From Vulcanimicrobiota bacterium (GTDB taxonomy: Bacteria > Vulcanimicrobiota > Vulcanimicrobiia > Vulcanimicrobiales > Vulcanimicrobiaceae), in the NCBI GenBank assembly GCA_003161555.1, contig PMOG01000113.1, positions 1-36,146 of the forward strand: a stretch of DNA of 36,146 nucleotides, in the 5' to 3' direction. Positions 5,578 to 33,014 of this stretch are shown here, piece by piece. The position numbers and the translations under genes were made by a program. The notes beneath the pieces are model-generated. The model was not told the origin of the DNA. It was given only the letters and a program-made list of their open reading frames with translations, and ran no database searches. How positions within the stretch are numbered: position 1 is the stretch's first letter; each line of letters starts with the position of its first letter.

Positions 5578-6450
5578 TTACCTTCGCACCGTCATGACGG
5601 GAACCGGTGAAACGCGCACCACTTCCTCGGCGACACTCCCCATCGCCAGGCGACTAATAAAGTTGCGCTGGTGCGTTCCGATCGCGATGAAGCGCGCCTC
5701 GGCGCGCGACGCGACATCGGCGAGCTGAGCGGCCGGTTCGCCTTCGACCATTTCCATCGAAAACGGAACGCCCGCAGCTCGCAGTCGATCGGCGACGTCG
5801 TCGCATTCGTCGGTGACGGCCGTCATCGCTTGACGGCGAGTCGTCTCGGGATCGTAACCGATGTGCTCCGGAATCCGCGCGAGATCGCTATCGTCGAAGA
5901 TGTGCACGACCTGCAGCGTGGCGCGCTGCGAGCGCGCTAGCGACACCGCCGCCGTCAGCGCTGCCTCCGCCGGAGCCGACGCATCCATCGCGACAAGGAT
6001 CGGGCCCGTGCCGTCGATCCGCGCCTGTCCGCTCACGCTGAAGACGGGGACATCGGCACTCCGGATGATGGCGAGGGCGTCGCTCCCGAGCCTGTTTCGC
6101 TGCAGCGGGCTCGAACCGTCCGTACCGATGACGATTGCATCTGCCCGTTGCGCGCGCGCGTATTTTTCCATTGCGAGCGGCGAGTCCGACACGACGGCGT
6201 TCGCCGGAACGCCGGCCGCGGCCGCTTGGGTCAGCGCTTCGCGTTCGTATTCATCCGCGCCATCCCCGGGCACCGCTTCGGCCGGCGATGCGGTCCGCCG
6301 GCCAACGGCGCCCATGGGAACCGCTACCCGAGCGCGACAGAACGAGACGCGTGCCCCTTCGGTTTTCGCCAGGGCTACGGCGAAGGCGACGGCTCGCACG
6401 GACGGCGGGGAGCCGTCGACGCCGACGACGATGTGCCGCAAGTTTCCCAT
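5578..6450 (-). CDS. Tandem universal stress protein (two UspA domains)
   Basis: A 290-residue protein with two UspA domains, about residues 1-145 and 146-290. The first starts HIVVGVDGSPPS, the second GPILVAMDASAPAEAA; both carry the Asp and Ser/Ala near the first strand. The second ends with GTHQRNFISRLAMGSVAEEVV, close to the G-2x-G-9x-G(S/T) nucleotide-binding signature though with the second Gly replaced. The first domain has GTDGSSPLQRNRLGS. Usp proteins bind ATP or AMP and support survival under stress, hypoxia or starvation. It is last in the minus-strand run that begins with phosphoketolase, and follows the hybrid kinase after 83 bp. Confidence 0.92.
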   Translation of the reverse strand: MGNLRHIVVGVDGSPPSVRAVAFAVALAKTEGARVSFCRARVAVPMGAVGRRTASPAEAVPGDGADEYEREALTQAAAAGVPANAVVSDSPLAMEKYARAQRADAIVIGTDGSSPLQRNRLGSDALAIIRSADVPVFSVSGQARIDGTGPILVAMDASAPAEAALTAAVSLARSQRATLQVVHIFDDSDLARIPEHIGYDPETTRRQAMTAVTDECDDVADRLRAAGVPFSMEMVEGEPAAQLADVASRAEARFIAIGTHQRNFISRLAMGSVAEEVVRVSPVPVMTVRR

Positions 6451-6533
6451 GCCGAAAGGTTGTCACGGACAGGGGAACATTGTGCGAACAGCGCTTCCCC
6501 GCACGTTCACAAGAAGCTACGGCCGGCTTCGGT

Positions 6534-8669
6534 TTACCCTTGGGACGCGGCTGCGTGCAACCAGCGCTCGGTCATTCTCCGGATATCCGCCAGCCGGACC
6601 GGCTTGGCGAGGTAATCGTCCATGCCGGCCGCCATGCACGCGTCCCGGTCCTCGGCGAACGCGTTGGCGGTCATTGCGACAATAGGGACGTGACCGCCGG
6701 TGTGCCGTTCCCGTTCGCGAATCGCCTTCGTGGCGGCCAAGCCGTCCATGTTCGGCATCAGGCAATCCATGAAAATCAGGTCGTACCCGTCTTCGGCGGC
6801 CTCGACCGCCTGCAGCCCATCGGAGACGAACGTCGCCGGAACGCCGACGTCGTTGAACTGCAGGCGCAGTAGCTGCTGCAGCCGCTCGTTGTCCTCGACC
6901 ACCAGAACCCGGCCGACCACACCAGCTCGCGGCTCAACTGCCGTTGGGCGAGCGGGCACTGCGGTCTCAGCGGATATTGCCCGCGACACCGCATCGAAGA
7001 GGTTGGACTGCCGCAGCGGCTTTCGGAGCGCACCGTCCGTCCCAATCGTGATCACGCGGCTGGGGTGGAGGGCGCGCAGAATATCGACGGTCACGCCAAT
7101 GTCTGAGATTCCGATGTCGTCCAAGTCGACGATCGCCACCCACGCCGGGCCGTCGTTCGTCTGCAGTCCGTCCGCGACGTCGCTCCCCGAGACGGCGCGC
7201 CGGGTTTTCATCGCCCAGGACGTCAGGTAACGTTCGACGATCTGCGCGAAGGTGTCATCGCCCGAAATGATCAGCCCGCCGGCGCCTTCGAGTCCGGAAT
7301 CGCTTCTCGCGCGTTCTTCGGCAATCGCGAACGCCGCCGTGAACCAAAACAGGGATCCAGCCCCCGGGGTGCTCGTTACGCCGATTTCGCCGCCGAGCAG
7401 TTCGGCGAGACTTTTTGAAATCGACAGGCCCAGACCCGTCCCGCCGACGTTTCTCGCGGCCATCCGGTCGACTTGAGAAAAAGGCTCGAACAACTGCGGC
7501 AGCATCTCCGCCGGGATGCCGATCCCCGTGTCCTCGACCTCAAACCGGAGCACGATATCCGATCCGCTTTGCCGAAACGGGGAGGCTCGCACGACTACCC
7601 GGCCGCCCTCCGTGAATTTCACGGCGTTGGCGAGCAGGTTCAGTAGAATCTGCTTCAGGCGGTCGGCATCGCCCTCGACTCGCGGAATCAGCGGATCGAC
7701 GAACGCATGCAAGGTGGTTCCCTTTTCGCGCGCCATCTGGGCAACGACCTCGGCCGCGCCCTCGACCACCGTCTGAACCTCGAAGATGCGCTTCTCCAAA
7801 TCAACTTTGCCCGCTTCGATCTTCGAAAAATCGAGGTTGCTCCTGATCAGCGCGAACAGCGCCTCCGCCGCCTCGCTGATCGTCTCGACACTGATCCGCT
7901 CCCGCTCGCCGAGCTTCGCGGTACTCAGCAGTTCCGCGGCGCCGATGATCGCCGTAAGCGGCGTGCGGAGCTCGTGGCTCATCGTGGCGACGAATTGGGT
8001 CTTGAACCGGGAAGCGCTCGCGAGTTCGCGATTGAGCTCCTCCAGTGCCGTCGCATGCTGCTGCACACCGGCATGGATCAGCCGTAGTTCCTCGGCACGC
8101 TTGCGCTCGGTGATGTCGCTGATCGCCGCCAACGTGAACGACCCCGTCTCGGATGCGATCGGATTGAGGCCGATCTCGATGGGGACTTCGCTGCCGTCCT
8201 TGCGTCGGCCGTAGAGATCGCGACCGGCGCCCATCGGGCGCGCGATGGGAGACTCGTTGAACGAGTCGCGCAGTGCGGGATGTCCGCGTCGAAAGCGCTC
8301 CGGCACGAGAACATCGATCGTTTGACCGAGCAGCTCAGCGCGAGAGTAGCCGAAGAGCTTTTCAGTCTGCGCGTTGATCAGCGCAATGCGGCCCTGAGCG
8401 TCGACCAGGATCTTGGCGTATGGCGACCCCTCAACGATCGCACCCAGCAGGGCTTCGTTGCCGGCGCTCGCGGGTGCCCGCAATCCGGGCGCGAGGGAAG
8501 ACACCTTCGCGCTGACCTCGTAGAGCGAATCCAATACGCGCTGACAGTTGGGCGCGCTGGGCTCGAGTTTTCCGTCGATGAAAGCTTCAAGGCTTGCGAT
8601 CGCGACGGCCAAGTCGTTCCGCAGGTCGTGGAGCGCGGTGTCCATACTCGACCATTCGCGGGCAACCAT
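6534..8669 (-). CDS. PAS-containing hybrid histidine kinase with two receiver domains
   Basis: A 711-residue cytosolic sensor kinase with no membrane segment. Domains in order: an N-terminal helical region with HDLRNDLAVA at 14-23; PAS at about 72-190; a linker coiled coil at 190-222; HisKA with the H-box FVATMSHELRTPL (phosphoacceptor His232); HATPase_c with the N-box LLNLLANAVKF at 342-352, G1 DTGIGIP at 380-386 and G2 GGTGLGLSI at 409-417; a divergent receiver at about 463-568 (Asp515, Lys550); and a canonical receiver at about 586-705 (Asp635, Thr667, Lys689). The PAS may bind haem, flavin or nothing; no ligand residue is evident. Its place behind xfp, the regulator gene and ackA suggests it senses redox or energy state and signals to the OmpR-type regulator at 10102-10803, perhaps through other proteins. 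Start may instead be the ATG at 8645. Confidence 0.92.
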   Translation of the reverse strand: MVAREWSSMDTALHDLRNDLAVAIASLEAFIDGKLEPSAPNCQRVLDSLYEVSAKVSSLAPGLRAPASAGNEALLGAIVEGSPYAKILVDAQGRIALINAQTEKLFGYSRAELLGQTIDVLVPERFRRGHPALRDSFNESPIARPMGAGRDLYGRRKDGSEVPIEIGLNPIASETGSFTLAAISDITERKRAEELRLIHAGVQQHATALEELNRELASASRFKTQFVATMSHELRTPLTAIIGAAELLSTAKLGERERISVETISEAAEALFALIRSNLDFSKIEAGKVDLEKRIFEVQTVVEGAAEVVAQMAREKGTTLHAFVDPLIPRVEGDADRLKQILLNLLANAVKFTEGGRVVVRASPFRQSGSDIVLRFEVEDTGIGIPAEMLPQLFEPFSQVDRMAARNVGGTGLGLSISKSLAELLGGEIGVTSTPGAGSLFWFTAAFAIAEERARSDSGLEGAGGLIISGDDTFAQIVERYLTSWAMKTRRAVSGSDVADGLQTNDGPAWVAIVDLDDIGISDIGVTVDILRALHPSRVITIGTDGALRKPLRQSNLFDAVSRAISAETAVPARPTAVEPRAGVVGRVLVVEDNERLQQLLRLQFNDVGVPATFVSDGLQAVEAAEDGYDLIFMDCLMPNMDGLAATKAIRERERHTGGHVPIVAMTANAFAEDRDACMAAGMDDYLAKPVRLADIRRMTERWLHAAASQG

Positions 8670-8690: not shown

Positions 8691-8930
8691 TCAGCGCCCG
8701 TAGTCGAGGTCACCGATCTGCGCCTGACGATCGGCGACGTAGACCAAGCGTCGATAGCCCGGATCGTCGTCCGAACCGAGCTCGAAGAGCTCACCCAGCT
8801 CGGCGTCGGGACGAATCGAGAGCACCGTGCCGCTATAGAGCATTCCTGCGGTCGAATGAATCACCACCCGGCGCCCGATCATCGCAGGGCTTGAGGACGG
8901 TTTTCCACGATCCGAGTATCGCCTCGGCAC
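8691..8930 (-). CDS. Small conserved-looking protein of unknown function
   Basis: A 79-residue frame from a GTG at 8930, or 63 residues from the ATG at 8882; neither has a strong ribosome site. The likely core, IGRRVVIHSTAGMLYSGTV followed by acidic and YRRLVYVADRQAQIGDLDY segments, looks like a small beta-barrel (SH3-like) rather than a random frame. It sits 24 bp after ackA and 21 bp before the hybrid kinase on the same strand, so it is probably part of the same transcript. I do not recognise the family. It might be an adaptor or regulator of the kinase, but that is only a guess from position. Confidence 0.55.
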   Translation of the reverse strand: MPRRYSDRGKPSSSPAMIGRRVVIHSTAGMLYSGTVLSIRPDAELGELFELGSDDDPGYRRLVYVADRQAQIGDLDYGR

Positions 8931-8954
8931 GTGAAGCCTGCGCGAAGCGCGTCT

Positions 8955-10055
8955 TCACGAGACGTTCGCACGCCCGGAGGAGGCTGCGGTTCGCGCCAAC
9001 TGCCAGCCTTCGCGAGCCGCGACAACGCAAACGGCTACGGGCGAAGCGCCGGCATCGATGCGTCCCTCGCCGGCGGTTCCGTTGCGCTCCTCGTCGATGG
9101 CGATGCCCAGACCGAGTCCGCCCTCGACCGCGGCGGCCCGAATTGCGCCGGCATTCTCACCGATTCCGCCCGTGAAGACGAGGACGTCGATCCCGCCCAG
9201 AACGGCAGCCATCGCGCCGAGCGCGGCCCGCAGCCGCCACGCGAGCACGTCGAGCGCAAGCGTGGCCGCCGGCGCGCTTCGCGCGGCGAGCAACTCGCGA
9301 ACGTCGCCGCTGATCCCCGATATTCCGAGCAAACCCGAGCGGCGCTCGAGCATTTCGTCCAGCGCATCGACGCTCGTCCCGGAGCGCAACAGATGGATCA
9401 GCAGCCCGGGATCGACTGACCCGCTGCGGGTCGCCATCGGCAAGCCGTCGAGCGGCGTGTAACCCATCGTCGTATCGATGCTCGCGCCGCGCAAGACGGC
9501 GCACAGCGACGAGCCGCCGCCCAAGTGCGCCGTAACGACGCGCGCCGAAGCGAGATCCACGCCTGCCAGTGCCGACCCGCGATGGGCGGCGTACTCGTGG
9601 CTCAACCCATGATAGCCGCGCCGCCGCAGCCCACTCTGGGTGAGCGCTCGCGGGATGGCGTACGTCGTCGCGGCTTCAGGCATCGCGCTGTGGAACGCGC
9701 TGTCCGACACGGCGAGCTGCGGAATGCCCGGCCGCAGGCGCTCCACTGCCTGGACGGCGCGCAGGGCGATTGCATCGTGCAGCGGAGCGTCCGCACCGCA
9801 CGCGACGATCCGGTCGAGTTCACGTTGATCGAGGCGCCGCGCCTCGCCGGTGCCGTCGGGCATCCGGACAAACCGGTGCGCCACGACGTCGACGGCCGGG
9901 CCGAGACTCTCGGCGAGTATGTCGTCGTCAAGCTCAGGCGGTGCGGCAATGTATGCCGGCGAGGGTGGATCGGCGATCGGCGGCAGTACCCCTGAAAGGT
10001 CATACCGCTCGACCTTCACCGAGGTCGAGCCGGCGTTGATGGTCAGAACGCGCAT
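8955..10055 (-). CDS. ackA: Acetate kinase
   Basis: A 366-residue member of the acetokinase family, a little shorter than the usual 390-400. It interconverts acetyl phosphate plus ADP with acetate plus ATP. Landmarks: the N-terminal LTINAGSTSVK; VVAHRFV in the region of the substrate-site Arg; RRRGYHGLSHEY with the catalytic-region His; AHLGGGSSLCAV, the phosphate-binding loop; TTMGYTPLDGLPMATRSGSVDP, the second family signature; and VFTGGIGENAGAIR near the C-terminus. Just upstream are the response regulator and phosphoketolase genes. Phosphoketolase makes acetyl phosphate, so the pair would form a short substrate-level ATP-yielding route. No phosphotransacetylase gene is seen nearby. Confidence 0.95.
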   Translation of the reverse strand: MRVLTINAGSTSVKVERYDLSGVLPPIADPPSPAYIAAPPELDDDILAESLGPAVDVVAHRFVRMPDGTGEARRLDQRELDRIVACGADAPLHDAIALRAVQAVERLRPGIPQLAVSDSAFHSAMPEAATTYAIPRALTQSGLRRRGYHGLSHEYAAHRGSALAGVDLASARVVTAHLGGGSSLCAVLRGASIDTTMGYTPLDGLPMATRSGSVDPGLLIHLLRSGTSVDALDEMLERRSGLLGISGISGDVRELLAARSAPAATLALDVLAWRLRAALGAMAAVLGGIDVLVFTGGIGENAGAIRAAAVEGGLGLGIAIDEERNGTAGEGRIDAGASPVAVCVVAAREGWQLARTAASSGRANVS

Positions 10056-10101: not shown

Positions 10102-10803
10102 TCAGGTCGGGTCGACCATCTTGTAGCCTACGCCGAAGACGGTGATGATGTGCGTCGGGTTGCCGGCGTCTGGTTCGACGCGTGCACGCAGGTTCGCGAT
10201 GTGGCGGTCGAGCGTCCGATCGAAGACGTCGCCGTCGGTCGTCACGCGCTCCAGGAGCTGGTCGCGCGTCAGCGTTTGTCCCACGTGCGAAGCCAGGATT
10301 TCCAGCAGCTTGAATTGGGTCGGCGTCAGCCCTACCGGCCGCCCGTTCACGCGCACCTCGTGTCCCACCGGATCGATCAGGATTGCACCGATTCGCCGGT
10401 GGTGCGCGTCGGAGGCATGCTCGGCGCGTTCGTTGCGGCGCAGCACACTCTTCACCCGCGCGACGAGCTCGCGTGGGCTGAACGGTTTGCTGACGTAGTC
10501 GTCCGCCCCGAGTTCGAGGCCAACAACACGGTCCACTTCGCTGTCGCGGGCCGTGAGCATGATGACCGGAACGTCGCGCTCGGCGCGGATGCGCCGCAGC
10601 ACTTCAGTTCCGGGAAAGCCGGGCAGCGTGAGGTCGAGAATAACCAAGTCGGGAGCCTGTTCGCGAAACAGTTCCACCGCCTGCGGCCCGTCGACGGCCC
10701 GGACGACCCGGAATCCTTCATCGGCAAGGTACTGCGCGAGCACGTCCACCAGCGTCGGCTCGTCGTCGACGATCAGGACGACGCGCGGCGGCGCCGTTAT
10801 CAT
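10102..10803 (-). CDS. OmpR/PhoB-family response regulator
   Basis: A 233-residue transcription regulator read from the ATG at 10801-10803; a longer frame overlaps phosphoketolase and has no homology. The receiver at about residues 5-118 has the acidic pair in LIVDDEP, the phosphoacceptor in VILDLTLP, Thr in MLTAR and Lys in VSKPF, all intact. The C-terminal winged helix (about 135-230) has LTPTQFKLLEIL, the DNA-recognition part FDRTLDRHIANLRARVEP and the closing ITVFGVGYKM. It lies between xfp (47 bp upstream) and ackA (46 bp downstream), an unusual place for a regulator. That suggests it controls the phosphoketolase pathway and is autoregulated. The most likely partner kinase in the window is the hybrid kinase at 6534-8669. 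Confidence 0.93.
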   Translation of the reverse strand: MITAPPRVVLIVDDEPTLVDVLAQYLADEGFRVVRAVDGPQAVELFREQAPDLVILDLTLPGFPGTEVLRRIRAERDVPVIMLTARDSEVDRVVGLELGADDYVSKPFSPRELVARVKSVLRRNERAEHASDAHHRRIGAILIDPVGHEVRVNGRPVGLTPTQFKLLEILASHVGQTLTRDQLLERVTTDGDVFDRTLDRHIANLRARVEPDAGNPTHIITVFGVGYKMVDPT

Positions 10804-10850: not shown

Positions 10851-13226
10851 TTAGCCCCACGTCCACGAGGTGATCTCCGGCATGTCGCAGCCTTCGCGAC
10901 GGATGTACGCAGCATGACGCGCAAGCGCGTCTTCGCAAAAGGGGAGCGCTTCCGGCGGAACAATGCAACCGCGCTGCTCCGCGCGCAGCAGCACTTCAAG
11001 CACGAGATGAAAGCGGCTGGCCCGGTTGAGTACCAGCATGTCGAACGGCGTCGTGGTGGTGCCCTCCTCGATATACCCGCGCACGTGGAAGCGTTCGTCG
11101 TTTGCACGCCGATACACGAGCTCGTGAACCGTCCGCGGGTAACCATGATAGGCGAACACGACCGGGCGATCGGCGGTGAACAAGTCGTTGAACTGCCGCT
11201 CGCTCAACCCGTGCGGGTGCAATTCCGGCGAGGTGAGCGCGAACAGGTCGATCACGTCGACAACCCGCAGGCGAAGCGCCGGTGCATGGCGGCGCAACAG
11301 CGACACTGCGGCGAGCGTCTCGACCGCCATCACGTCGCCGGCGCAGCCGAGGACGACGTCAGGCTCGACGTCGTCGGCCGCCCACGTCCAACGGGCGGCG
11401 CCCGCCGCGACTTGCGCGCGCGCGGCGTCGAGCGTCAGCCACTGGGGCGCGTCCTGCTTCGGCGCGACGATGACATTGATCCGATTCGTCGCCGCCAGCG
11501 CGCGTTCCATGACGCATAGCAGCGAGTTGGCATCAGGCGGGAAGTACACCCGCACGAATTCCGCCTTCTCGTTCATCACCGTGTTGACGAAGCCGGGGCC
11601 TTGGTGCGAGTAACCGTTGTGTTCCTGCCGCCAGACGTGTGAGGTCATCAGGAAATTCAAGGACGATACCGGCGCCCGCCAGGCCGTTTCGCCGGCCATC
11701 TTGAGCCACTTCGCGTACTGCGAGACCATCGAATCGACGATCGGCACGAAGCCTTCGTACGAGGCGAAGATTCCGTGCCGTCCGGACAGCACATAGCCCT
11801 CCATCCAGCCCTCGCACGTGTGCTCGCTGAGCATCTCCATCACACGGCCGGTCCGGGCTAGCCCCTCGTCCGTTGCGACGCGCGGCAGATCCCAAGCGCG
11901 CGAAGTCACCGAAAAGACGTCGTCGAGTTTGTTGGACGCCGCCTCGTCGGGTGAGAACAGCCGGAAGTTGCGCTCGCCGGTGTTGGCGGCAAAAACGTCC
12001 GCGAGCCAGCCCCCCAGAACGTGCGTCGCAGAACAACTTGAGCCGCCCGCGACGGAGCATTCGAGGGCATGCGGTTCCAGCGCCGGCAGATGCAGCGGGA
12101 TGCGGCGCGTCCCGCCGTTCGCGCGCGCGCTGCGGCCGAGTTGCAACTCGGCGGTCGGAAGCGTCGCCAAGACGTCGGGCGCCGGATGCCCGGCGTCGTC
12201 AAACAGTTCGGCCGGCCGGTACGAACGCAGCCACCCTTCGACCGCGTGGCGGTGTCCCTCGTTTCCGACCGGGTCGGTAATCGGAATACCGTGCGACCGC
12301 GGCGTGTCGAGCACAGGAAGTCCGTCGATCGCACGCGGGCCCGTCATTCCCTTGGGCGAGCGCAGGATGAGCGCCGGCGGTGCGATCGGGGGGTCACCAT
12401 GCTGCGCAGCGCTGCGACGCGCGACGAGTCCCTCGTATGCCGCCTCAAATGCCTGCCACAGCCGGGCGTGCATTTGGTCGCGCGGCTCGTCTTCGGTGAC
12501 GCGCACCAGGATCGGTTCGTAGCCCATGCCGCGTACGTACGCACACACCCCGTCGTCACCGAGCCTCGCTAACACCGAGGGACCCGAAAGCTTGTAGCCG
12601 TTGAGATGCAAAATCGGCAAAACCATACCAGACTGCGCCGGATCGACGAACGCATGCGAGAGCCATGACGCCGCCAGCGGGCCGGTCTCGGCTTCGCCAT
12701 CTCCGATAACGCAAGCCACCAACAACGCCGGGTCGTCGAGCGCCGCGCCGTAGGCGTGCGAAAGCGAATAGCCTAACTCGCCGCCTTCGTGAATTGCACC
12801 GGGACAGTGCGCCGTCAGGTGGCTCGGCCGACCGCCCGGCCACGAGAACTCACGCAGCAAGATCGCCGTGCCGCTTTCGTCTCGTGCGAGTCGCGGGTCG
12901 ATTTCGGCGAGCGTTCCTTCGAGAAACAGGTTGGCATAGATCGCCGGCGCGCCGTGTCCGGGGCCGACGACCAGCAGCGTTTCGCAGCCACGGTCCACGA
13001 TAAGGCGGTTGAGGTGGGCGTAGACGAGGTTCAAGCCGGGTTGGGTGCCCCAATGCCCGAGTACCCGCGCCTTACAGTCGGCCGCCGCGAGCGGCCGGCG
13101 CAAGAGGGCGTTGTCCCGCAGGTAGAGCTGGGCGGCACCGAGGTAGTTGGCGGTACGCCAGTAGCGGTCGATGGCCGTCAGGCGCTCGCTGCGCGTCACC
13201 GGTCGTGCCTCGGTTGTCGTCGTCAC
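10851..13226 (-). CDS. xfp: Xylulose-5-phosphate/fructose-6-phosphate phosphoketolase
   Basis: A 791-residue thiamine-diphosphate enzyme from a GTG at 13226, the usual length for the family. The frame extends to 13337, but that part overlaps the divergent stress-protein gene and lacks homology. It splits xylulose 5-phosphate (or fructose 6-phosphate) with phosphate into acetyl phosphate and glyceraldehyde 3-phosphate (or erythrose 4-phosphate). Landmarks: HWGTQPGLNLVYAHLNR at about 58-74, GPGHGAPA at 88-95, the TPP-binding GDGEAETGPLAASW at 175-188, and HLNGYKLSGPSVLAR soon after. The later part has PDEAASNKLDDVF and FMTSHVWRQEHNGYSHQGPG, and the protein ends PEITSWTWG, the usual C-terminus. 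It is the first gene of the minus-strand module with the regulator and ackA. Confidence 0.96.
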   Translation of the reverse strand: MTTTTEARPVTRSERLTAIDRYWRTANYLGAAQLYLRDNALLRRPLAAADCKARVLGHWGTQPGLNLVYAHLNRLIVDRGCETLLVVGPGHGAPAIYANLFLEGTLAEIDPRLARDESGTAILLREFSWPGGRPSHLTAHCPGAIHEGGELGYSLSHAYGAALDDPALLVACVIGDGEAETGPLAASWLSHAFVDPAQSGMVLPILHLNGYKLSGPSVLARLGDDGVCAYVRGMGYEPILVRVTEDEPRDQMHARLWQAFEAAYEGLVARRSAAQHGDPPIAPPALILRSPKGMTGPRAIDGLPVLDTPRSHGIPITDPVGNEGHRHAVEGWLRSYRPAELFDDAGHPAPDVLATLPTAELQLGRSARANGGTRRIPLHLPALEPHALECSVAGGSSCSATHVLGGWLADVFAANTGERNFRLFSPDEAASNKLDDVFSVTSRAWDLPRVATDEGLARTGRVMEMLSEHTCEGWMEGYVLSGRHGIFASYEGFVPIVDSMVSQYAKWLKMAGETAWRAPVSSLNFLMTSHVWRQEHNGYSHQGPGFVNTVMNEKAEFVRVYFPPDANSLLCVMERALAATNRINVIVAPKQDAPQWLTLDAARAQVAAGAARWTWAADDVEPDVVLGCAGDVMAVETLAAVSLLRRHAPALRLRVVDVIDLFALTSPELHPHGLSERQFNDLFTADRPVVFAYHGYPRTVHELVYRRANDERFHVRGYIEEGTTTTPFDMLVLNRASRFHLVLEVLLRAEQRGCIVPPEALPFCEDALARHAAYIRREGCDMPEITSWTWG

Positions 13227-13304
13227 AGCCTCACTGTAGGTACCGGCTACGCCACCGGCCGTGAAGGCGATGTGAATGCCCGGGGGGCTGCGTTCGCTGA
13301 ACCT

Positions 13305-13320
13305 TCGCACGGCCGTGCGA
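13305..13320. promoter_or_regulatory. 16-bp perfect palindrome in the xfp / usp divergent gap
   Basis: TCGCACGGCCGTGCGA is a perfect palindrome with no spacer. It lies ten bases before the usp start at 13331 and 79 bases before the xfp start. The position, between two divergent genes of one functional module, suits an operator for a dimeric regulator acting on both. GC-rich palindromes do occur by chance in such DNA, so the role is an inference. Confidence 0.45.
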
Positions 13321-13330
13321 CGATGGCCGC

Positions 13331-14230
13331 ATGACATCAGTCTTTGAGCACGTCATCGTCCCCGTTGACGGGTCCTCGACCGCCGAACGCGGTATCGCTC
13401 TGGCGCTGGAATTGACGGCGGGCGGCGGCAGCATCACCTTCTGCAGCGTCGTCGACCCGACGGTTCTCTGCGTGCCCGCGGCCGAAGTGGGAGGGCTCGA
13501 TTTCGGACCGCTCCTGACGGTGCTCGACGAAGACGCCGAGACGTTCTGCCGCGACGCTCAGGCGAAGAGCGACGCCGCCGGCGTGAAATCGGACACCATC
13601 GTGCTGCACGGTCAGTGCGTCAGTGTCATCGAGCAGCTGGTTCGAGACAACCGCTGCGATGCCGTCGTGCTCGGAACCCACGCCAGAACCGGATTGGACC
13701 GCATGGTGCTCGGAAGCGTCACCGAGGGTCTGCTGCGAGCGATCGACGCACCGATCGTGGTCGCGCACCAAGACGACGAAGCGCGCACCGGACCGGTTCT
13801 GGTCGCGGTCGACGACTCGCCGGCAGCTGCCGCCGCCGTCAAAGAAGCAATCGTCATCGCGGCCTCACGGGGAAATGCGTTGGCGCTGGTTCACGTTTTG
13901 AATCCGGACCACCCCGACGCGGCCGCCGCCAATGCGGCGCTGGAACGGGCAGCGCACGAGGCCCGCGAACGCGGCCTCGCCGTTTCCCTCATGCTGCGAC
14001 GCGGCGACCCCTGCGACGAACTGATCGCGGCGGCGGACGCGCTCGAAAGCTGCATGATCGTGATGGGCACGCACGGCCGTTCGCTCGTGCCGCGGCTGGT
14101 GCTCGGGAGCGTCGCGGCGGCCGTCGTCGAACGTGCGCGGGTCCCGGTGATGACGATCCGGCGTTCGGGGCGCGTATATCGCCCCGCTTCGGTCAGCTTA
14201 GCGCAGGCGGTGACCGGAATACACGCCTGA
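13331..14230 (+). CDS. Tandem universal stress protein (two UspA domains)
   Basis: A 299-residue protein with two UspA domains, about 1-150 and 151-282. The first begins HVIVPVDGSSTAERG and has GTHARTGLDRMVLGSVTEG, a full G-2x-G-9x-G(S/T) ATP-binding pattern. The second begins GPVLVAVDDSPAAAAA and has GTHGRSLVPRLVLGSVAAAVV, also intact. Both nucleotide sites therefore look functional, unlike the partner at 5578-6450. It is divergent from phosphoketolase across about 104 bp that contain a 16-bp palindrome. Its last 38 bases overlap the 3' end of the convergent SCO gene, so strong expression of both would produce antisense-overlapping transcripts. Confidence 0.93.
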   Translation: MTSVFEHVIVPVDGSSTAERGIALALELTAGGGSITFCSVVDPTVLCVPAAEVGGLDFGPLLTVLDEDAETFCRDAQAKSDAAGVKSDTIVLHGQCVSVIEQLVRDNRCDAVVLGTHARTGLDRMVLGSVTEGLLRAIDAPIVVAHQDDEARTGPVLVAVDDSPAAAAAVKEAIVIAASRGNALALVHVLNPDHPDAAAANAALERAAHEARERGLAVSLMLRRGDPCDELIAAADALESCMIVMGTHGRSLVPRLVLGSVAAAVVERARVPVMTIRRSGRVYRPASVSLAQAVTGIHA

Positions 14231-16603: not shown

Positions 16604-17085
16604 CACTTCACCTCGACCTTCGCGGCCATCAGCTGGTGGCCGGATCCGCAGTACTCATTGCAGACGAGCAAGTACGTGCCTCGATCGCGAAACGTGTGCG
16701 AAACCTCGCTCACCCAGCCCGGCGTCACCATGGTGTTCACGCCGGTCGCCGGTATGCTGAAGCCGTGCTCGACGTCCGCGCTGGTAACGTAGAAGGTCAC
16801 CCGCGATCCGACGGGCACCTCAATGTCGGACGGCGTGAACGAGAAGATCCGCGCGACGTAGTATGCTTCATAGGCCCCGTCGGCGACCTTGCGCAGCCCC
16901 GGATGGTCGAAGGGCGGCGTTTCGGAGACCTTGGTCGGATCTATGCTCTGGACGTGGCTCGGCGGCACGAATCCGTCAACGACGGCCGCGGTCGTGATCA
17001 CGGCCAGGAAAACGACCAGCATAGCCAAGCCGAAGGCCATCCAGATCTTCTCTTGCCGGTGTAGGTGGATGTGCACGCCTACCAC
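16603..17085 (-). CDS. Cytochrome c oxidase subunit II, CuA-containing
   Basis: A 160-residue subunit with one N-terminal membrane helix (MAFGLAMLVVFLAVITTAAV) and a periplasmic cupredoxin domain that takes electrons from a cytochrome c or other carrier. The CuA ligands are all present: His in VEHGFSI and the cluster CNEYCGSGHQLM (C-x3-C-x3-H-x2-M). The single helix fits ba3-type subunit II. The reported start is a GTG at 17085 that overlaps the stop of the 38-codon gene; the GTG at 17076, giving MHIHLHRQEKIW, is equally likely by comparison with relatives. Its stop overlaps the start of subunit I. Confidence 0.95.
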   Translation of the reverse strand: MVGVHIHLHRQEKIWMAFGLAMLVVFLAVITTAAVVDGFVPPSHVQSIDPTKVSETPPFDHPGLRKVADGAYEAYYVARIFSFTPSDIEVPVGSRVTFYVTSADVEHGFSIPATGVNTMVTPGWVSEVSHTFRDRGTYLLVCNEYCGSGHQLMAAKVEVK

Positions 17086-17195
17086 CGGGCCCGCAGCAGC
17101 GCGAACATGGCAAACCAGCCGATCAGGATGAAGGCCCCGATCCCAAAGACGAAGGCGAGCGTCGCGGGAAGCGGCTCGTCGGGCAGCGGTTTCAT
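17079..17195 (-). CDS. 38-residue single-helix membrane peptide at the head of the oxidase operon
   Basis: An ATG at 17195 opens a 38-codon frame, MKPLPDEPLPATLAFVFGIG, followed by a hydrophobic stretch AFILIGWFAMFALL and RARW at the end. This is a short cytoplasmic (or periplasmic) tail, one transmembrane helix of about 22 residues and a positive C-terminus. Its TAG overlaps the GTG of subunit II. Position, size and coupling match the small subunit IIa of ba3 oxidases (CbaD type), a single-helix peptide that packs against subunits I and II. I infer that role; the sequence is too short for certainty. Automated gene callers would often skip it. Confidence 0.75.
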   Translation of the reverse strand: MKPLPDEPLPATLAFVFGIGAFILIGWFAMFALLRARW

Positions 17196-17202
17196 TCGGT
17201 CT

Positions 17203-17208
17203 ATTCTA
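17203..17208 (-). promoter_or_regulatory. Possible -10 element of the oxidase operon (leaderless start)
   Basis: On the minus strand TAGAAT lies seven bases before the ATG at 17195, and no Shine-Dalgarno sequence is visible. If it is the -10 box, transcription would begin at or next to the start codon, giving a leaderless message. No convincing -35 was found at the right distance, so this is tentative. Confidence 0.3.
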
Positions 17209-17236
17209 ACGCCGGCCGGCCCAAATGTTGTGAATG

Positions 17237-17250
17237 GCCCGTGAACGGGC
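17237..17250. promoter_or_regulatory. Inverted repeat between the oxidase operon and the 17290 gene
   Basis: GCCCGT-GA-ACGGGC forms a 6-bp perfect inverted repeat with a two-base centre. It lies about 30 bp upstream of the putative oxidase -10 box and 40 bp before the divergent gene. It could be an operator shared by both, or chance in GC-rich DNA. Confidence 0.3.
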
Positions 17251-23639: not shown

Positions 23640-23691
23640 GACAAAACCGCCTTCGCAGACTTTCCTCAGACCTCGGCGCTAGGCTGACGGA

Positions 23692-24270
23692 ATGTTTCAG
23701 CTTGCCATCGTCGCCCCGTTCGCTATTGCCGCAGCACTCGGAGGCGCGACTCCGGTCGACGGCGTCGCGTGGTCGACGGACGCGGCACATTCGAACGTCA
23801 CGCTGAGCGTGTCGCAGATGTTCTTCTCACGCCTCACCGGAACGCTCCCGGTCGCGTCGGCGACGGTCGTCACGGCTCCCGATTCGGACCTTCCGCTGGA
23901 GTTCGGCGTCGTGCTCGACTCCGCGGACATGACCACGCACGACACGGGTCGCGACGCGGCGCTGCACAGCGACCGCTTCTTCGACGTCGCGCGCTATCCG
24001 ATCATCCGCTTCACCAGCGACCAGATCGTCGGGTCGAACGCCGATACGTTCACCATTCACGGTCAGTTATCGATGCGTGACCAGACGCACCCGATCGTGT
24101 TCACGACGCATCGGGTGCAGTTGGGGTTCGACGGCGACGGCAAACGCCGCATCCGGTACGAGGCGACCGGCGGCTTCCACCGTTCCGATTACGGGATGGC
24201 GGCCGACCCCGGAGTCATCGGCAACGAGGTCGCGCTCCGCGTCGAGATCGAGGCTGTCGACCTGCGCTGA
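23692..24270 (+). CDS. YceI-family periplasmic protein
   Basis: A 192-residue protein with a signal peptide (MFQLAIVAPFAIAAALGGA). The YceI lipocalin-like barrel is marked by the start WSTDAAHSNVTLSVSQMF, the LDSADMTTHDTGRDAALHSDRFFDVARYP stretch in two parts, and TIHGQLSMRDQTHPIVF. The last is the TIxGxLTixGxTxPV hallmark. It ends with FHRSDYGM and a final strand. Family members bind isoprenoid lipids such as polyprenyl chains in the barrel; some are induced by base or acid stress. The gene follows the two metallopeptidases by 53 bp and is convergent with the TraB-like gene 16 bp away. Confidence 0.92.
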   Translation: MFQLAIVAPFAIAAALGGATPVDGVAWSTDAAHSNVTLSVSQMFFSRLTGTLPVASATVVTAPDSDLPLEFGVVLDSADMTTHDTGRDAALHSDRFFDVARYPIIRFTSDQIVGSNADTFTIHGQLSMRDQTHPIVFTTHRVQLGFDGDGKRRIRYEATGGFHRSDYGMAADPGVIGNEVALRVEIEAVDLR

Positions 24271-28694: not shown

Positions 28695-29720
28695 GTGCCG
28701 GCGGCACCCGCAATGAACTTGTTCTTGGACACCGTGCGCGGGTCCGCAGGCCGGCAAACGCCGATTTGGATCATGCGCCAAGCCGGACGCTATCTGCCGG
28801 AGTACCGGAAGATCAAAGAACGCGCGACCTTCCTCGAGATGACGCACGATCCGGCGCTGGCAGCCGAAATCACCCTGCAGCCCTTGCGACGATTTCCGCT
28901 CGACGCCGCGATCATCTTCAGCGACATCATGACGCCGCTCGAAGCGTTGGGAATTCCGGTCGACTTCACGCCCGGCCCGGTGATCCGCGAGCCCTTGCGG
29001 TCGCGCGCGGCGATCGAAGCACTGGCGCTGCGGGACGAGGTCGCGCCGTTCGTGGGCGAGGCACTGCGCATCGTGCGGGCCGCGCTGACCGGCGAGGTCG
29101 CCCTGATCGGCTTTGCCGGCGCCCCGCTCACGCTAGCGGCATACCTGGTCGAGGGCGGCGGCAGCAAGGAATACGAGCACTTCCGCCGGTTCCTGCGCAG
29201 CGAGCCGGCGGCGATGCACCTGCTGCTCGAGAAACTGACCGACCTGACGATTCGTTATCTGCAAATGCAGATCGCGTCGGGCGCGCAGGCCGTCCAGTTG
29301 TTCGACAGCTGGGCCGGGCTGCACGACCTGCGCACCTACCGCGAGTACGGTCTCCCGTACAACGCCAGGATCCTCGCGGCGCTGGCGGACGCCGGTGCGG
29401 CGCGCATCTACTTCGCGCTCGGCGCAGCACATTTGCTCGAGGCCGTCGCAGAACTTCCGGCCGATGCGGTCGGAATCGATTGGCGGACCGACCTTGCGGC
29501 GGCGCGCGCTGCGCTGCCGGGCAAAGCGCTGCAAGGGAATCTGGATCCGGCGTTGCTGTTCGCCGACCACAGCGCGATCGCGGCCGAAGCGCGGCGCATC
29601 TTGGATCAGGGGAACGGCGGAGCCCACGTCTTCAATCTCGGCCACGGTATTTGGCCCGCCACGCCGATCGACGCCGTCGCGCACCTGGTCGAGACGGTGC
29701 ACGCGTACCGGCGTCCATGA
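28695..29720 (+). CDS. hemE: Uroporphyrinogen decarboxylase
   Basis: A 341-residue enzyme that removes four carboxyl groups from uroporphyrinogen III to make coproporphyrinogen III. The GTG at 28695 is preceded by GAAGGG with good spacing; the ATG at 28713 (MNLFLDTVRG) is the alternative. Signatures: PIWIMRQAGRYLPEYR, the first family motif with the substrate-binding Arg residues, then IIFSDIMTPLEALGI with the catalytic-site Asp. GFAGAPLTLAAYLVEGGGSK is the second family motif, and VFNLGHGIWPATP lies near the end with its conserved His. It heads the haem operon hemE-hemF-hemH-hemY; its TGA overlaps the hemF start (ATGA). Confidence 0.96.
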   Translation: MPAAPAMNLFLDTVRGSAGRQTPIWIMRQAGRYLPEYRKIKERATFLEMTHDPALAAEITLQPLRRFPLDAAIIFSDIMTPLEALGIPVDFTPGPVIREPLRSRAAIEALALRDEVAPFVGEALRIVRAALTGEVALIGFAGAPLTLAAYLVEGGGSKEYEHFRRFLRSEPAAMHLLLEKLTDLTIRYLQMQIASGAQAVQLFDSWAGLHDLRTYREYGLPYNARILAALADAGAARIYFALGAAHLLEAVAELPADAVGIDWRTDLAAARAALPGKALQGNLDPALLFADHSAIAAEARRILDQGNGGAHVFNLGHGIWPATPIDAVAHLVETVHAYRRP

Positions 29721-30700
29721 ATTTCGCCGCCTCCGCGACGCGGCAGCGTGCTGCCGGCCTGGTCGCCGAACTCCAGGAACGCATCTGCAGCCGCATCCTC
29801 GATCTCGAACGCGCGACTGCGGCGGCGGCGGAGCGCGCTGCGTCCGCGTTCACCGTCGATGACTGGGAAAGTCCCCCCTCGGAGCGCGGCATCGCGGGCT
29901 ACGGCTCGACGCGCGTCATCGCCGGCGGTGCGCCGCTCGAGAAAGCCGGCGTCAACACCTCGGTCGTGACCGGCGCTCAGCTGCCGCCCAGCGTCGTGGC
30001 GCAGCGGCCGGAACTCGAGGGTCACGGCTTCTTCGCGGCCGGCGTGAGCGTCGTGTGCCATCCCTGCAACCCCCACGCGCCGGCGGCACACTGCAACTAT
30101 CGCTATTTCGAAGCGCAAGCGCCCGACGGGTCGCGCAGCGCCTGGTGGTTCGGGGGCGGTGCCGACCTGACGCCGTACTATCCGGTACTCGACGACGTGC
30201 GCGACTTTCATCGCGCGCTCAAAGCTGCGTGCGATCGCACTAACGACGATTTCTACGCCGAGTTCAAGAACTGGTGCGATCGGTATTTCTACTTGCCGCA
30301 TCGCAACGAGGCGCGCGGCGCCGGCGGTATCTTCTACGATTACATCGACGCCGAGCGCGGCACGCGCGACGAGTTGTTCGCATTCTCGCGCGCAGCCGGC
30401 GAAGCGTTCGTTCGCGGCTACTTCCCCATCGTCGAACGCCGCGCGGCGCAAGCGTTCGGCGAACGCGAACGTTCCTTCCAACTTTTGCGCCGCGGACGGT
30501 ATGTCGAGTTCAACCTGCTATACGATCGCGGGACGCTCTTTGGATTGCAAAGCGGGGGCCGCGTCGAATCCATTCTCATGTCGCTGCCGCCCTTGGTTCG
30601 CTGGGCGTACGACGAACGGCCGCAACCCGGTTCGGTCGAGGACGCGCTGCAGGAGTATTTGCAACCGCGCGACTGGTTTGCGGAGGATCCGTTCGCATGA
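29717..30700 (+). CDS. hemF: Oxygen-dependent coproporphyrinogen III oxidase
   Basis: A 327-residue cytosolic enzyme that uses O2 to convert coproporphyrinogen III to protoporphyrinogen IX. The ATG at 29717 overlaps the hemE stop as ATGA; longer frames upstream are antisense-like shadows of hemE. Signatures: GVNTSVVTG, FFAAGVSVVCHPCNPHAP, AWWFGGGADLTPYYP (the typical metal/substrate segment), KNWCDRYFYLPHRNEARGAGGIFYDY, and GRYVEFNLLYDRGTLFGLQSGGR, each matching family blocks in order. The choice of the O2-dependent enzyme rather than HemN marks an aerobic or microaerobic route. Its stop overlaps the hemH start, again as ATGA. Confidence 0.97.
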   Translation: MNFAASATRQRAAGLVAELQERICSRILDLERATAAAAERAASAFTVDDWESPPSERGIAGYGSTRVIAGGAPLEKAGVNTSVVTGAQLPPSVVAQRPELEGHGFFAAGVSVVCHPCNPHAPAAHCNYRYFEAQAPDGSRSAWWFGGGADLTPYYPVLDDVRDFHRALKAACDRTNDDFYAEFKNWCDRYFYLPHRNEARGAGGIFYDYIDAERGTRDELFAFSRAAGEAFVRGYFPIVERRAAQAFGERERSFQLLRRGRYVEFNLLYDRGTLFGLQSGGRVESILMSLPPLVRWAYDERPQPGSVEDALQEYLQPRDWFAEDPFA

Positions 30701-31692
30701 AATCTGCGGTGCTGCTCGTCAATCTCGGTTCCCCGGCGTCAACCAGCATACCGGACGTGCGTCGCTATCTCGATCAGTTTCTCATGGATCCGTACGTCAT
30801 CGACGTGCCGTGGCCGTTGCGCGCGCTAATCGTGAAAGGACTCATTCTGCCGACGCGGCCGCCGAAGACGGCGCACGCGTATCAGAGCATTTGGACCAGC
30901 GACGGGTCGCCGTTGATCGTCATCTCCGAGCGACAGCGGCGTGCGTTGGAAGCGCGACTGCAACGACCGGTGGGCCTGGCAATGCGGTACGGCGAGCCGT
31001 CGATTCCCAATGCGGTCGCGGAACTCGTCGCACGCGCGAAAGACTGCGACGAGATCGTGGTCGTGCCGCTCTATCCGCAGTACGCAATGGCCACGACGAA
31101 GACGGTGGAGGTCGAAGCGGAGCCCGCGCTGCGCGCAACCGGCATCCCGTTCCGCTTCGTCCCGCCATTTTACGGCGATGAGCGCTACTTGGATGCCATG
31201 GAAGCGCGGATCCGCTGCGACTATCCCGTGGACATCCAGTATCTGCTCTTCAGTTACCACGGTATCCCGGCGCGACATCTGCGTAAGACCGACCCGACAC
31301 ACGGTCATTGCCTGACGCCCGACTGCTGCACGACACCGTCGCCCGCGCACGCGACCTGCTATCGTCATCAAGCGATCGTCACGACGCAACGGCTCGCGCA
31401 ACGCCTCAATCTTACGCCGGAGGGGTACGGCTTTTCGTTTCAGTCGCGGTTGGGCAGCGGCTGGCTCGAGCCGTTTACCGACGTGCTGCTCGAACAGTTC
31501 CCTGCGCGCGGCATTACACGGCTCGCCGTCGTCTGTCCGTCGTTCGTCGCCGATTGTTTGGAGACGCTTGAGGAGATCGCGATCCGCGGCCGTGCGTCAT
31601 TCCTAGCCGCCGGCGGTGAATCGCTGCACTACGTTCCGTGCCTCAACGACGACCCGCTGTGGATTGAGGCGCTCGCCGCGCTCTGCGAATGA
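30697..31692 (+). CDS. hemH: Ferrochelatase with Cys-rich insert
   Basis: A 331-residue enzyme that inserts ferrous iron into protoporphyrin IX. It begins KSAVLLVNLGSP; FSYHGIP at 186-191 supplies the metal-binding His188, and ETLEEI at 289-294 the conserved Glu. Between them lies HCLTPDCCTTPSPAHATCYR, with Cys205, Cys210, Cys211 and Cys221. Comparable Cys clusters in some bacterial ferrochelatases have been linked to a [2Fe-2S] centre, so one is possible here, though the ligand set must be tested. The ATG at 30697 overlaps the hemF stop, and its TGA overlaps the next start at 31689 in the same ATGA form. The frame extends upstream to 30274 but without homology. Confidence 0.96.
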   Translation: MKSAVLLVNLGSPASTSIPDVRRYLDQFLMDPYVIDVPWPLRALIVKGLILPTRPPKTAHAYQSIWTSDGSPLIVISERQRRALEARLQRPVGLAMRYGEPSIPNAVAELVARAKDCDEIVVVPLYPQYAMATTKTVEVEAEPALRATGIPFRFVPPFYGDERYLDAMEARIRCDYPVDIQYLLFSYHGIPARHLRKTDPTHGHCLTPDCCTTPSPAHATCYRHQAIVTTQRLAQRLNLTPEGYGFSFQSRLGSGWLEPFTDVLLEQFPARGITRLAVVCPSFVADCLETLEEIAIRGRASFLAAGGESLHYVPCLNDDPLWIEALAALCE

Positions 31693-33014
31693 AGATCGCC
31701 GTTGCCGGCGGCGGCCTCGCGGGCCTCGCCGCCGCGCTCCGTGTGCGAGACGATCACGACGTCACGGTGTTTGAGCGCGAAGCGCAAGCCGGCGGGAAAA
31801 TTCGTTCGCAATCCTTCGACGGTTTTCTCTTCGAATGGGGACCGAACGGCTTCTCCTCATCGTCGCCCGAGCTGCGCGACGTCATCCGCGTTTGCGGATT
31901 GGAAAACGAGATCGTCCCTGCTGACGCCGCCGCCGTCAAGCGGTACGTGTATTTCGGCGGCCGTTTGCACGCGCTACCGTCGCGTCCGCAGGAGGTGCTG
32001 CGCTTTTCGCTTTTGAGCGGTCGCGGAAAACTGGGCGCGTTGCGCGGTCTCGTCGCGCGAGCGCCGAAAGGCGAGCGCGACGAAAGCGTGTACGATTTCT
32101 TTGCGCGACGGTTTGGCGACGAGGTTGCCGAACGCGTCGTGCGGCCCGCGCTGCTCGGTATTACCGCTGGCGATGCGCGCGCGACGAGCATGGACGCACT
32201 CTTTCCGCGCTTGCGCGAACTCGAGCGCCGGCACGGCTCGCTGGTTAAGGGATTGATGCGCGCACGAAGCGCACCCGGACGGCTTTCGACGCTGCGCGGC
32301 GGCATGACGCGTTTGATCGACGGCATGGCCGGCGTACTCGGCGCACGCATCGAGCGGTCGTGCGAGGTGCGGCGGGTCGCCCGCAACGGCACGCAGTGGC
32401 GCGTCGAACACACGCGCGGCGCGAATGACTTCGACGCCGTCATGCTCGCGGTGCCGGCGTACGCCGCGGCGGAACTTCTCCGCGACGTGGATACCGACTT
32501 GCCCGGCCTGTTGGAACGCATTCCGTACGCGCCGATGCGCGTTTGCGGCATTGCGTTTCGCGCGCAGGACGTCGCCGCACCGTTGGACGGTTTCGGTTTC
32601 TTGGTAGCGCGCGATCAAAACGTGCGCATTCTCGGCGCGCTCTACACCTCGACGATCTTTCCGCAACAGGTGCCGCGGGATTGCGTCTATCTTCGTGTAT
32701 TCTTGGGCGGAACGACCGACCCGCAGGCTATGGATCTTTCCGAAGGCGAGGCACTGGCGATCGTCCGCCGCGACCTCGCGACGACGCTCCATATCACCGC
32801 AGAACCAATCGGCTACCATGAGCATCTCTGGGCGCGAGCGATTCCGCAGTACGGGATCGGTCACCGCGAAATATTGCGGGAAATCGATGTTAGGCTTGCC
32901 TCACTTTCAGGCATGGCGCTGACGGGCAATGCGTATCGCGGCGTGGGCGTCGGCGACGTGGTGCGCGACGCCGTCGTACAGGTTGACAGGCTGCGTTTTC
33001 AGGGTAACGAATGA
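31689..33014 (+). CDS. hemY: Protoporphyrinogen oxidase, HemY type
   Basis: A 441-residue FAD enzyme that oxidises protoporphyrinogen IX, using O2 in most members of this class. The N-terminal Rossmann motif IAVAGGGLAGLAAALRVR ends in a helix and then VTVFEREAQAGGKIRS, the second FAD segment. FEWGPNGF follows at about 50, typical of HemY/PPOX. The C-terminal LTGNAYRGVGVGDVVRDA closes the FAD site. It could in principle be a coproporphyrinogen oxidase (the Gram-positive use of HemY), but hemF and a protoporphyrin-type ferrochelatase in the same operon favour the protoporphyrin route. Its TGA overlaps the ATG of a 13-codon mini-ORF. Confidence 0.93.
   Translation: MKIAVAGGGLAGLAAALRVRDDHDVTVFEREAQAGGKIRSQSFDGFLFEWGPNGFSSSSPELRDVIRVCGLENEIVPADAAAVKRYVYFGGRLHALPSRPQEVLRFSLLSGRGKLGALRGLVARAPKGERDESVYDFFARRFGDEVAERVVRPALLGITAGDARATSMDALFPRLRELERRHGSLVKGLMRARSAPGRLSTLRGGMTRLIDGMAGVLGARIERSCEVRRVARNGTQWRVEHTRGANDFDAVMLAVPAYAAAELLRDVDTDLPGLLERIPYAPMRVCGIAFRAQDVAAPLDGFGFLVARDQNVRILGALYTSTIFPQQVPRDCVYLRVFLGGTTDPQAMDLSEGEALAIVRRDLATTLHITAEPIGYHEHLWARAIPQYGIGHREILREIDVRLASLSGMALTGNAYRGVGVGDVVRDAVVQVDRLRFQGNE

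Follow-up and report, generated by a model that had tools for sequence, protein, structure and literature searches.

What controls the two genes that diverge from the short gap at 13227–13330, and which element in that gap serves the control? In the window, the whole stretch of 36,146 nucleotides analysed here, xfp (10851–13226, minus strand) encodes a phosphoketolase with domains PF09364, PF03894 and PF09363, and usp1 (13331–14230, plus strand) encodes a tandem universal stress protein (PF00582). The distance of about 104 bp given in the initial annotation holds for starts at GTG 13226 and ATG 13331. We infer the former: the gene caller preferred 13199, but when the xfp products of four relatives are aligned with the 13226 version, the match begins at its residue 2. 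For usp1, ATG 13331 is the only in-frame start codon back to TGA 13298. A scan of 13150–13420 for sigma-70 promoters and terminators found none. The initial annotation proposed a 16-bp palindrome in the gap as the site from which a regulator could control both genes. Our main reading, to which we assign a probability of roughly 0.74, is that the gap is a two-sided promoter region under an OmpR/PhoB-family regulator that would bind direct repeats and not the palindrome.

A check of the sequence confirmed that the palindrome, TCGCACGGCCGTGCGA, is perfect and occupies 13305–13320; T13304 and C13321 flank it without pairing, so that its length is exactly 16 bp. Such an element is no rarity in DNA of 65% G+C: the window holds four perfect palindromes of at least 16 bp, compared with a mean of 2.05 expected from 60 first-order Markov sequences, and nine of at least 14 bp, compared with 7.5. 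A longer one (18 bp, GCCGAGTTGCAACTCGGC) lies at 12135–12152 within the xfp coding sequence. The 300 contigs of the genome itself (73.5% complete) contain no second exact copy of the 16-mer, and with up to two mismatches it occurs at four places, compared with 15 for the reversed pattern. Nor is it kept in the aligned usp and xfp upstream regions of relatives. Because the 16-mer neither recurs nor is conserved, the two outcomes that the initial annotation had itself named as refuting, we reject the palindrome as the operator. Its further suspicion of a regulator outside the OmpR family, on the grounds that OmpR sites are direct repeats, loses its footing, since 11-bp direct repeats face both usp and xfp and an OmpR/PhoB-type regulator is encoded directly downstream of xfp. 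The idea of one regulator serving both sides through the shared gap survives in that a direct-repeat site faces each gene, but the palindrome is not supported as that site. In short, the initial annotation pointed to the correct gap for the wrong reason.

The conserved element of the gap is an 11-bp direct repeat, TTCNCA-N5-TTCNCAC, a consensus picked after viewing the xfp/usp alignment. On the usp side it reads TTCGCT-GAACC-TTCGCAC (13293–13310, plus strand; one mismatch), as located by the alignment of relatives; it begins 38 bp ahead of the start codon, and 8 bp after it comes a –10-like hexamer, GACGAT (NANNNT; 13319–13324, –12 to –7 from the ATG). On the xfp side, the alignment and a matrix scan place TTCACA-TCGCC-TTCACGG at 13259–13276 (minus strand), and the –10-like hexamer TACAGT (13233–13238) follows 20 bp after the operator and 6 bp before GTG 13226, so that xfp, too, is predicted to be leaderless. 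The palindrome runs from the second base of the second usp half-site (TTCGCAC, 13304–13310) through the spacer to the second base of the hexamer. It is probably incidental, a chance product of that half-site and the bases preceding the hexamer.

Among the 98 genomes searched, our own included, xfp had a match in 56 and usp in 71, and the relatives with islands of usp, phosphoketolase and oxidase genes belong to Candidatus Eremiobacterota (WPS-2). The divergent xfp-usp gap is also present in two of the ten relatives from the genus, G001 and G004. In G010 the two genes lie on two contigs whose ends both carry the same gap sequence, in G009 a 41-residue xfp match adjoins usp, and in G002 xfp diverges from a less similar usp (37%), each with a site of up to two mismatches. 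We compared the upstream regions of ten usp genes (the window's among them; that of G010 is truncated by the contig end, and the G005 protein has an identity of just 41%) and of nine xfp genes. TTC-N8-TTC is aligned in seven of the ten usp regions. All seven continue with NCAC (in G004 and G009, NTAC) and have AT six bases ahead of the ATG; the repeat is shifted in G005, partial in G008 and absent from G003. In six of the nine xfp regions we found GTGAA-N6-GTGAA, the complement of TTCAC-N6-TTCAC (GCGAA in G008), the exceptions being G001, with a repeat at 9 bp, and G005 and G007, with none. The G004 and G009 sites are not independent, since these genomes are close relatives.

The same repeat recurs well beyond this gap. 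Exact matches to TTCNCANNNNNTTCNCAC number 25 in the 11 genomes of the genus, at least one in nine of them, compared with four for the reversed pattern; G002 has the regulator and lacks the exact operator. Across 21 island regions, in which 416 genes were called, pairs at a period of 11 bp with up to one mismatch number 32 in 52 kb of upstream sequence and eight in 326 kb of coding sequence, both strands counted. This amounts to a 47-fold difference in density, compared with 0–3 upstream pairs and 0–11-fold for other periods. Without the 17 genes that had defined the motif, the remaining 397 island genes still have 24 such pairs at period 11 and 0–3 at the other periods from 7 to 16. By comparison, 408 control upstream regions of the same genus, drawn from 400 kb of G001, G009, G008, G005 and G006, have two at period 11 and 0–3 elsewhere; control set B includes a second regulator copy of G001 (in L231). 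With up to two mismatches the island upstream regions have 74 pairs at period 11 versus 8–19 at other periods, and the controls 11 versus 4–16. Further contigs of the genus, at up to one mismatch, have eight versus 0–1.

Outside the genus, at up to two mismatches, the surroundings of the regulator in G013, G031 and G040 have 20 pairs at period 11 versus 2–5, and another family of the order (G061–G063) has 26 versus 0–6. The signal is weaker in family f3 of the same class (21 versus 3–13), and six family members whose regulator is 56–61% identical have 7 versus 1–7.

Scans of the window on its own say less. It holds four matches with up to one mismatch, one of them within the COX2 coding sequence, and at up to two mismatches five pairs at period 11 versus 0–3 at other periods. 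The usp1 site was listed in one gene-based count and was missing after the gene caller had been retrained, usp1 evidently having been called otherwise. A matrix was built from 19 hand-picked sites without the window: five from the usp side, five from the xfp side and nine of the 25 exact matches. It left out the xfp site of G001, whose period is 9, the usp upstream regions of G003, G005 and G008, and the G009 usp site, a near copy of that in G004. It gave 17 window matches above threshold, compared with 12.1 in simulated sequence, and none scored above the best simulated matches; the usp operator ranked third with 13.5, compared with a median best score of 13.7 for shuffled windows. A profile of operator plus hexamer, model R1, placed the usp operator second in the window (E = 0.18). 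The 26 sites behind it were taken from the very genus that was searched, which makes the search partly circular. Across whole genomes the model is weak, with a best E of 0.0037, it does not separate G006 (six matches at E ≤ 5, best 0.29) from G000 (five) or G010 (four), and we do not count it as proof. The top match of both window scans, at 8954–8985 (plus strand), falls on the 3′ end of ackA, and no gene was called behind it on the plus strand.

The position of the repeat relative to the genes is as regular as its period. In the 83 unique period-11 sites that relatives contribute, TANNNT follows the second TTCNCA mainly at two distances: offset 9 (21 sites) and, one 11-bp unit further, offset 20 (10 sites). 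No other offset has more than two. The distance from the start of the operator to the start codon is 38 bp in 15 cases and 49 bp in seven. The layout is thus operator, 8 bp, NANNNT, 6 bp, start codon. It also emerges without gene calls. At offset 21 the genus islands have a start codon for 30 of their 222 pairs (with a mean of 8.2 per offset), G013, G031 and G040 for 7 of 67 (2.0), and the order's other family for 18 of 53 (3.0). The corresponding figures are 3 of 97 in f3, where there is no start-codon peak (3.0), 6 of 121 in the controls (3.3) and 2 of 40 near phoU (0.7). In PhoB promoters, too, the site lies directly upstream of the –10 region. Because the operator typically begins 38 bp ahead of the start codon and a –10-like hexamer follows it by 8 bp, the operator-bearing genes look as if they give leaderless transcripts; the hexamer stands 6–7 bp before the start codon, as in leaderless genes of Deinococcus (PMC12340547).

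The protein that most likely reads these sites is encoded within the window. The response regulator at 10102–10803 (minus strand) combines a receiver domain (Response_reg, PF00072) with a winged-helix domain (Trans_reg_C, PF00486), and its closest solved structure is RegX3, followed by MtrA. Matches of 70–78% occur in nine of the ten genus relatives and in G013 and G040. All 11 genome islands examined encode a regulator with this DNA-binding half, and no other protein in the 21 island regions matches that half at E = 1e-5. G003 has two regulators, the second on another contig, and G001 carries a second copy (73%) away from its island, at G001:C4:1009846-1010532. Among the 12 aligned copies (15 were found), the helix DRTLDRHIANLR is identical in 11 and reads DRTIDRHIANLR in one, and a 45% paralog differs. 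G006, a single contig that is 99% complete, has no regulator match at E = 1e-60, no usp match at E = 0.001, no intact xfp and no exact operator; xfp is present there as fragments only, one with a stop (G006:C1:3200199-3200867, in L295). Taken together, the sequence data make it likely that regulator 10102–10803 binds the direct-repeat operator.

The repeats, their spacing, their recurrence and their conservation are read from the sequences themselves, and from them we propose the following mechanism. Each side of the gap offers a pair of TTCNCA(C)-like half-sites at an 11-bp interval, on which a regulator, most likely 10102–10803, would bind as a head-to-tail dimer at the position of the –35 box and recruit RNA polymerase, thereby acting as an activator rather than a repressor. 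Since the usp half-sites span –38 to –21 and the NANNNT hexamer –12 to –7, transcription would start at the usp ATG and yield a leaderless mRNA. On the xfp side the hexamer lies farther out, at 20 bp, a difference of roughly one 11-bp unit, which would place it on roughly the same face of the DNA. Similar operators may control usp2 and the operon of the ba3-type oxidase, and perhaps also the kinase, and the signal could be oxygen or energy status.

Three other readings of these data deserve consideration. The palindrome itself might be the operator of a symmetric dimeric repressor (TetR-, GntR-, LexA- or NtrC-like), acting in this species only and overlapping the direct-repeat promoter. Its perfection is compatible with this, as is its place between operator and hexamer, from which a repressor could shut off transcription, and comparison of the usp genes of nine relatives at the same distance from the start codon (6, 2, 4, 2, 4, 3, 1, 0 and 1 complementary pairs of 8) finds six of the eight pairs retained in G001. 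However, the other eight relatives retain only 0–4, the number of palindromes in the window is at chance level and the genome has no other exact copy. Inverted repeats are also not enriched upstream of island genes: TCGCAC-N4-GTGCGA with up to two mismatches occurs six times there and eight times in controls, and perfect palindromes with arms of at least 6 bp occur 32 and 36 times, respectively. We consider such a repressor site highly improbable. A more substantial objection accepts the operator and assigns it to another OmpR-type regulator from outside the island, with different targets for the local protein. Each genome of the genus has 23–63 response regulators among first-look candidates, so there is no shortage of contenders, but the local regulator is co-located in all 11 islands, its recognition helix is nearly invariant, and regulator and operator are jointly absent from G006, which together make an outside regulator unlikely.

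The direct repeats might instead be PHO boxes read by a phosphate regulator akin to PhoP or RegX3, which would make the island part of a phosphate-starvation response. The kinship with RegX3 and the Streptomyces PHO box, whose core GTTCACC in 11-nt units resembles TTCNCAC (PMC4415409), lend this idea some appeal. The test, partial because the position of the pst genes was not established, took the surroundings of phoU in eight genomes (nine loci, 144 kb). These stretches contain nothing that matches the regulator at E = 1e-5 and no pair with up to one mismatch upstream of their 159 genes, and for this reason membership in a Pho regulon is disfavoured. At up to two mismatches there are four pairs, versus 0–4 at other periods, and four pairs with up to one mismatch elsewhere in the phoU stretches look like background. 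The island genes, moreover, are concerned with stress, acetyl phosphate and electron transfer, and we regard a phosphate regulon as very unlikely.

If the gap is a two-sided promoter region served by direct repeats, other genes of the window would belong to the same system. The tandem universal stress protein gene usp2 (5578–6450, minus strand) has TTCGCA-CAATG-TTCCCCT at 6471–6488 on its strand, starting 38 bp before the gene, and the hexamer CAACCT (6457–6462) ahead of ATG 6450. The oxidase operon (COX2, COX1, SCO) on the minus strand has TTCACG-GGCCA-TTCACAA upstream at 17228–17245 and TAGAAT (17203–17208) 19 bp after it; its first ORF (17079–17195, ATG 17195) encodes a single helix of 38 residues that we take to resemble subunit IIa of ba3 oxidases, and is so short that the ORF list does not include it. 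An operator-like sequence with two mismatches, TTCGCG-CAGGC-TTCACGT (8929–8946, minus strand, with hexamer GATACT at 8915–8920), lies upstream of the ORF at 8691–8882 and of a PAS hybrid histidine kinase with a C-terminal receiver (6534–8669, minus strand), a candidate sensor that may pair with the regulator. The acetate kinase gene ackA occupies 8955–10055 on the minus strand. Elsewhere in the window, a weak operator-like pair at 23652–23670 (plus strand) stands 40 bp before a YceI gene, with TAGGCT six bases ahead of its ATG at 23692, and a plus-strand haem synthesis cluster at 28766–33014 encodes coproporphyrinogen oxidase, ferrochelatase and an amine-oxidase-family enzyme.

In the islands as a whole, 54 genes have a site of up to two mismatches within 160 bp, about a quarter of them presumably by chance according to a rough estimate from other periods. 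Of the 28 scanned for families, nine had none; the others include four universal stress proteins, cupredoxin/COX2-like proteins, a cation P-type ATPase, HSP20, pyridoxamine-phosphate-oxidase-like proteins, BON, GNAT, PAS, SpoIIE, cytochrome c and radical SAM. A broader reading, which we hold to be an even chance, is an old regulon of Candidatus Eremiobacterota, common to at least one order, in which one OmpR-type regulator would activate leaderless stress and energy genes through a repeat at a fixed 38 (or 49) bp from the start codon. Its members would include universal stress proteins, xfp as the maker and ackA as the user of acetyl phosphate, and a ba3-type oxidase, and acetyl phosphate might feed back on the regulator. 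The operator is of a known kind, a direct repeat, and the regulon looks undescribed in a poorly known phylum: judged by titles and abstract openings, no paper among those listed on Eremiobacterota or WPS-2, or on stress proteins with response regulators, leaderless genes and direct repeats, describes such a regulon, in a collection with few subscription journals. In place of a chance palindrome there is now a testable regulon map with a named regulator to test, and the consensus and promoter grammar can be used to annotate start sites and regulons.

Several known systems share parts of this arrangement. The island genes with xfp and ackA resemble the low-oxygen-activated (lxa) locus of Burkholderia cenocepacia, where six universal stress proteins are grouped with a cytochrome and metabolic genes (PMC6127331), and here as well usp genes cluster with respiratory and metabolic genes. 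The signal of the regulon may be low oxygen or low energy. The suggested oxygen sensor of lxa is the CRP-type BCAM0049 (PMC6127331), whereas the sequences here point to an OmpR-type direct-repeat operator. Two-component control of several oxygen-related operons is also known from the NmpR regulon of Myxococcus xanthus, but NmpR is NtrC-like and works with sigma-54 at the inverted site GCGCA-N5-TGCGC (PMC11841059); the window palindrome spaces CGCA and TGCG by 6 and does not recur. Known sites of the OmpR/PhoB family consist of direct repeats to which dimers bind in tandem, and for PhoP their spacing is strict (PMC4832192). The present operators share with the PHO box and other PhoB/PhoP operators two 11-nt direct-repeat units in which the core is conserved and the bases between are loose, together with a response regulator of the winged-helix type (PMC4415409, PMC4832192); they differ from the PHO box in the core TTCNCA(C), in a fixed distance to the start codon and in that no link to phoU was found. 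Leaderless genes of Deinococcus-Thermus have an adjacent TANNNT –10 motif, with the hexamer about 6–7 bp before the ORF, much as here (PMC12340547). Unlike those genes, the promoters described here, as known from sequence, combine the hexamer with a direct repeat at a fixed position.
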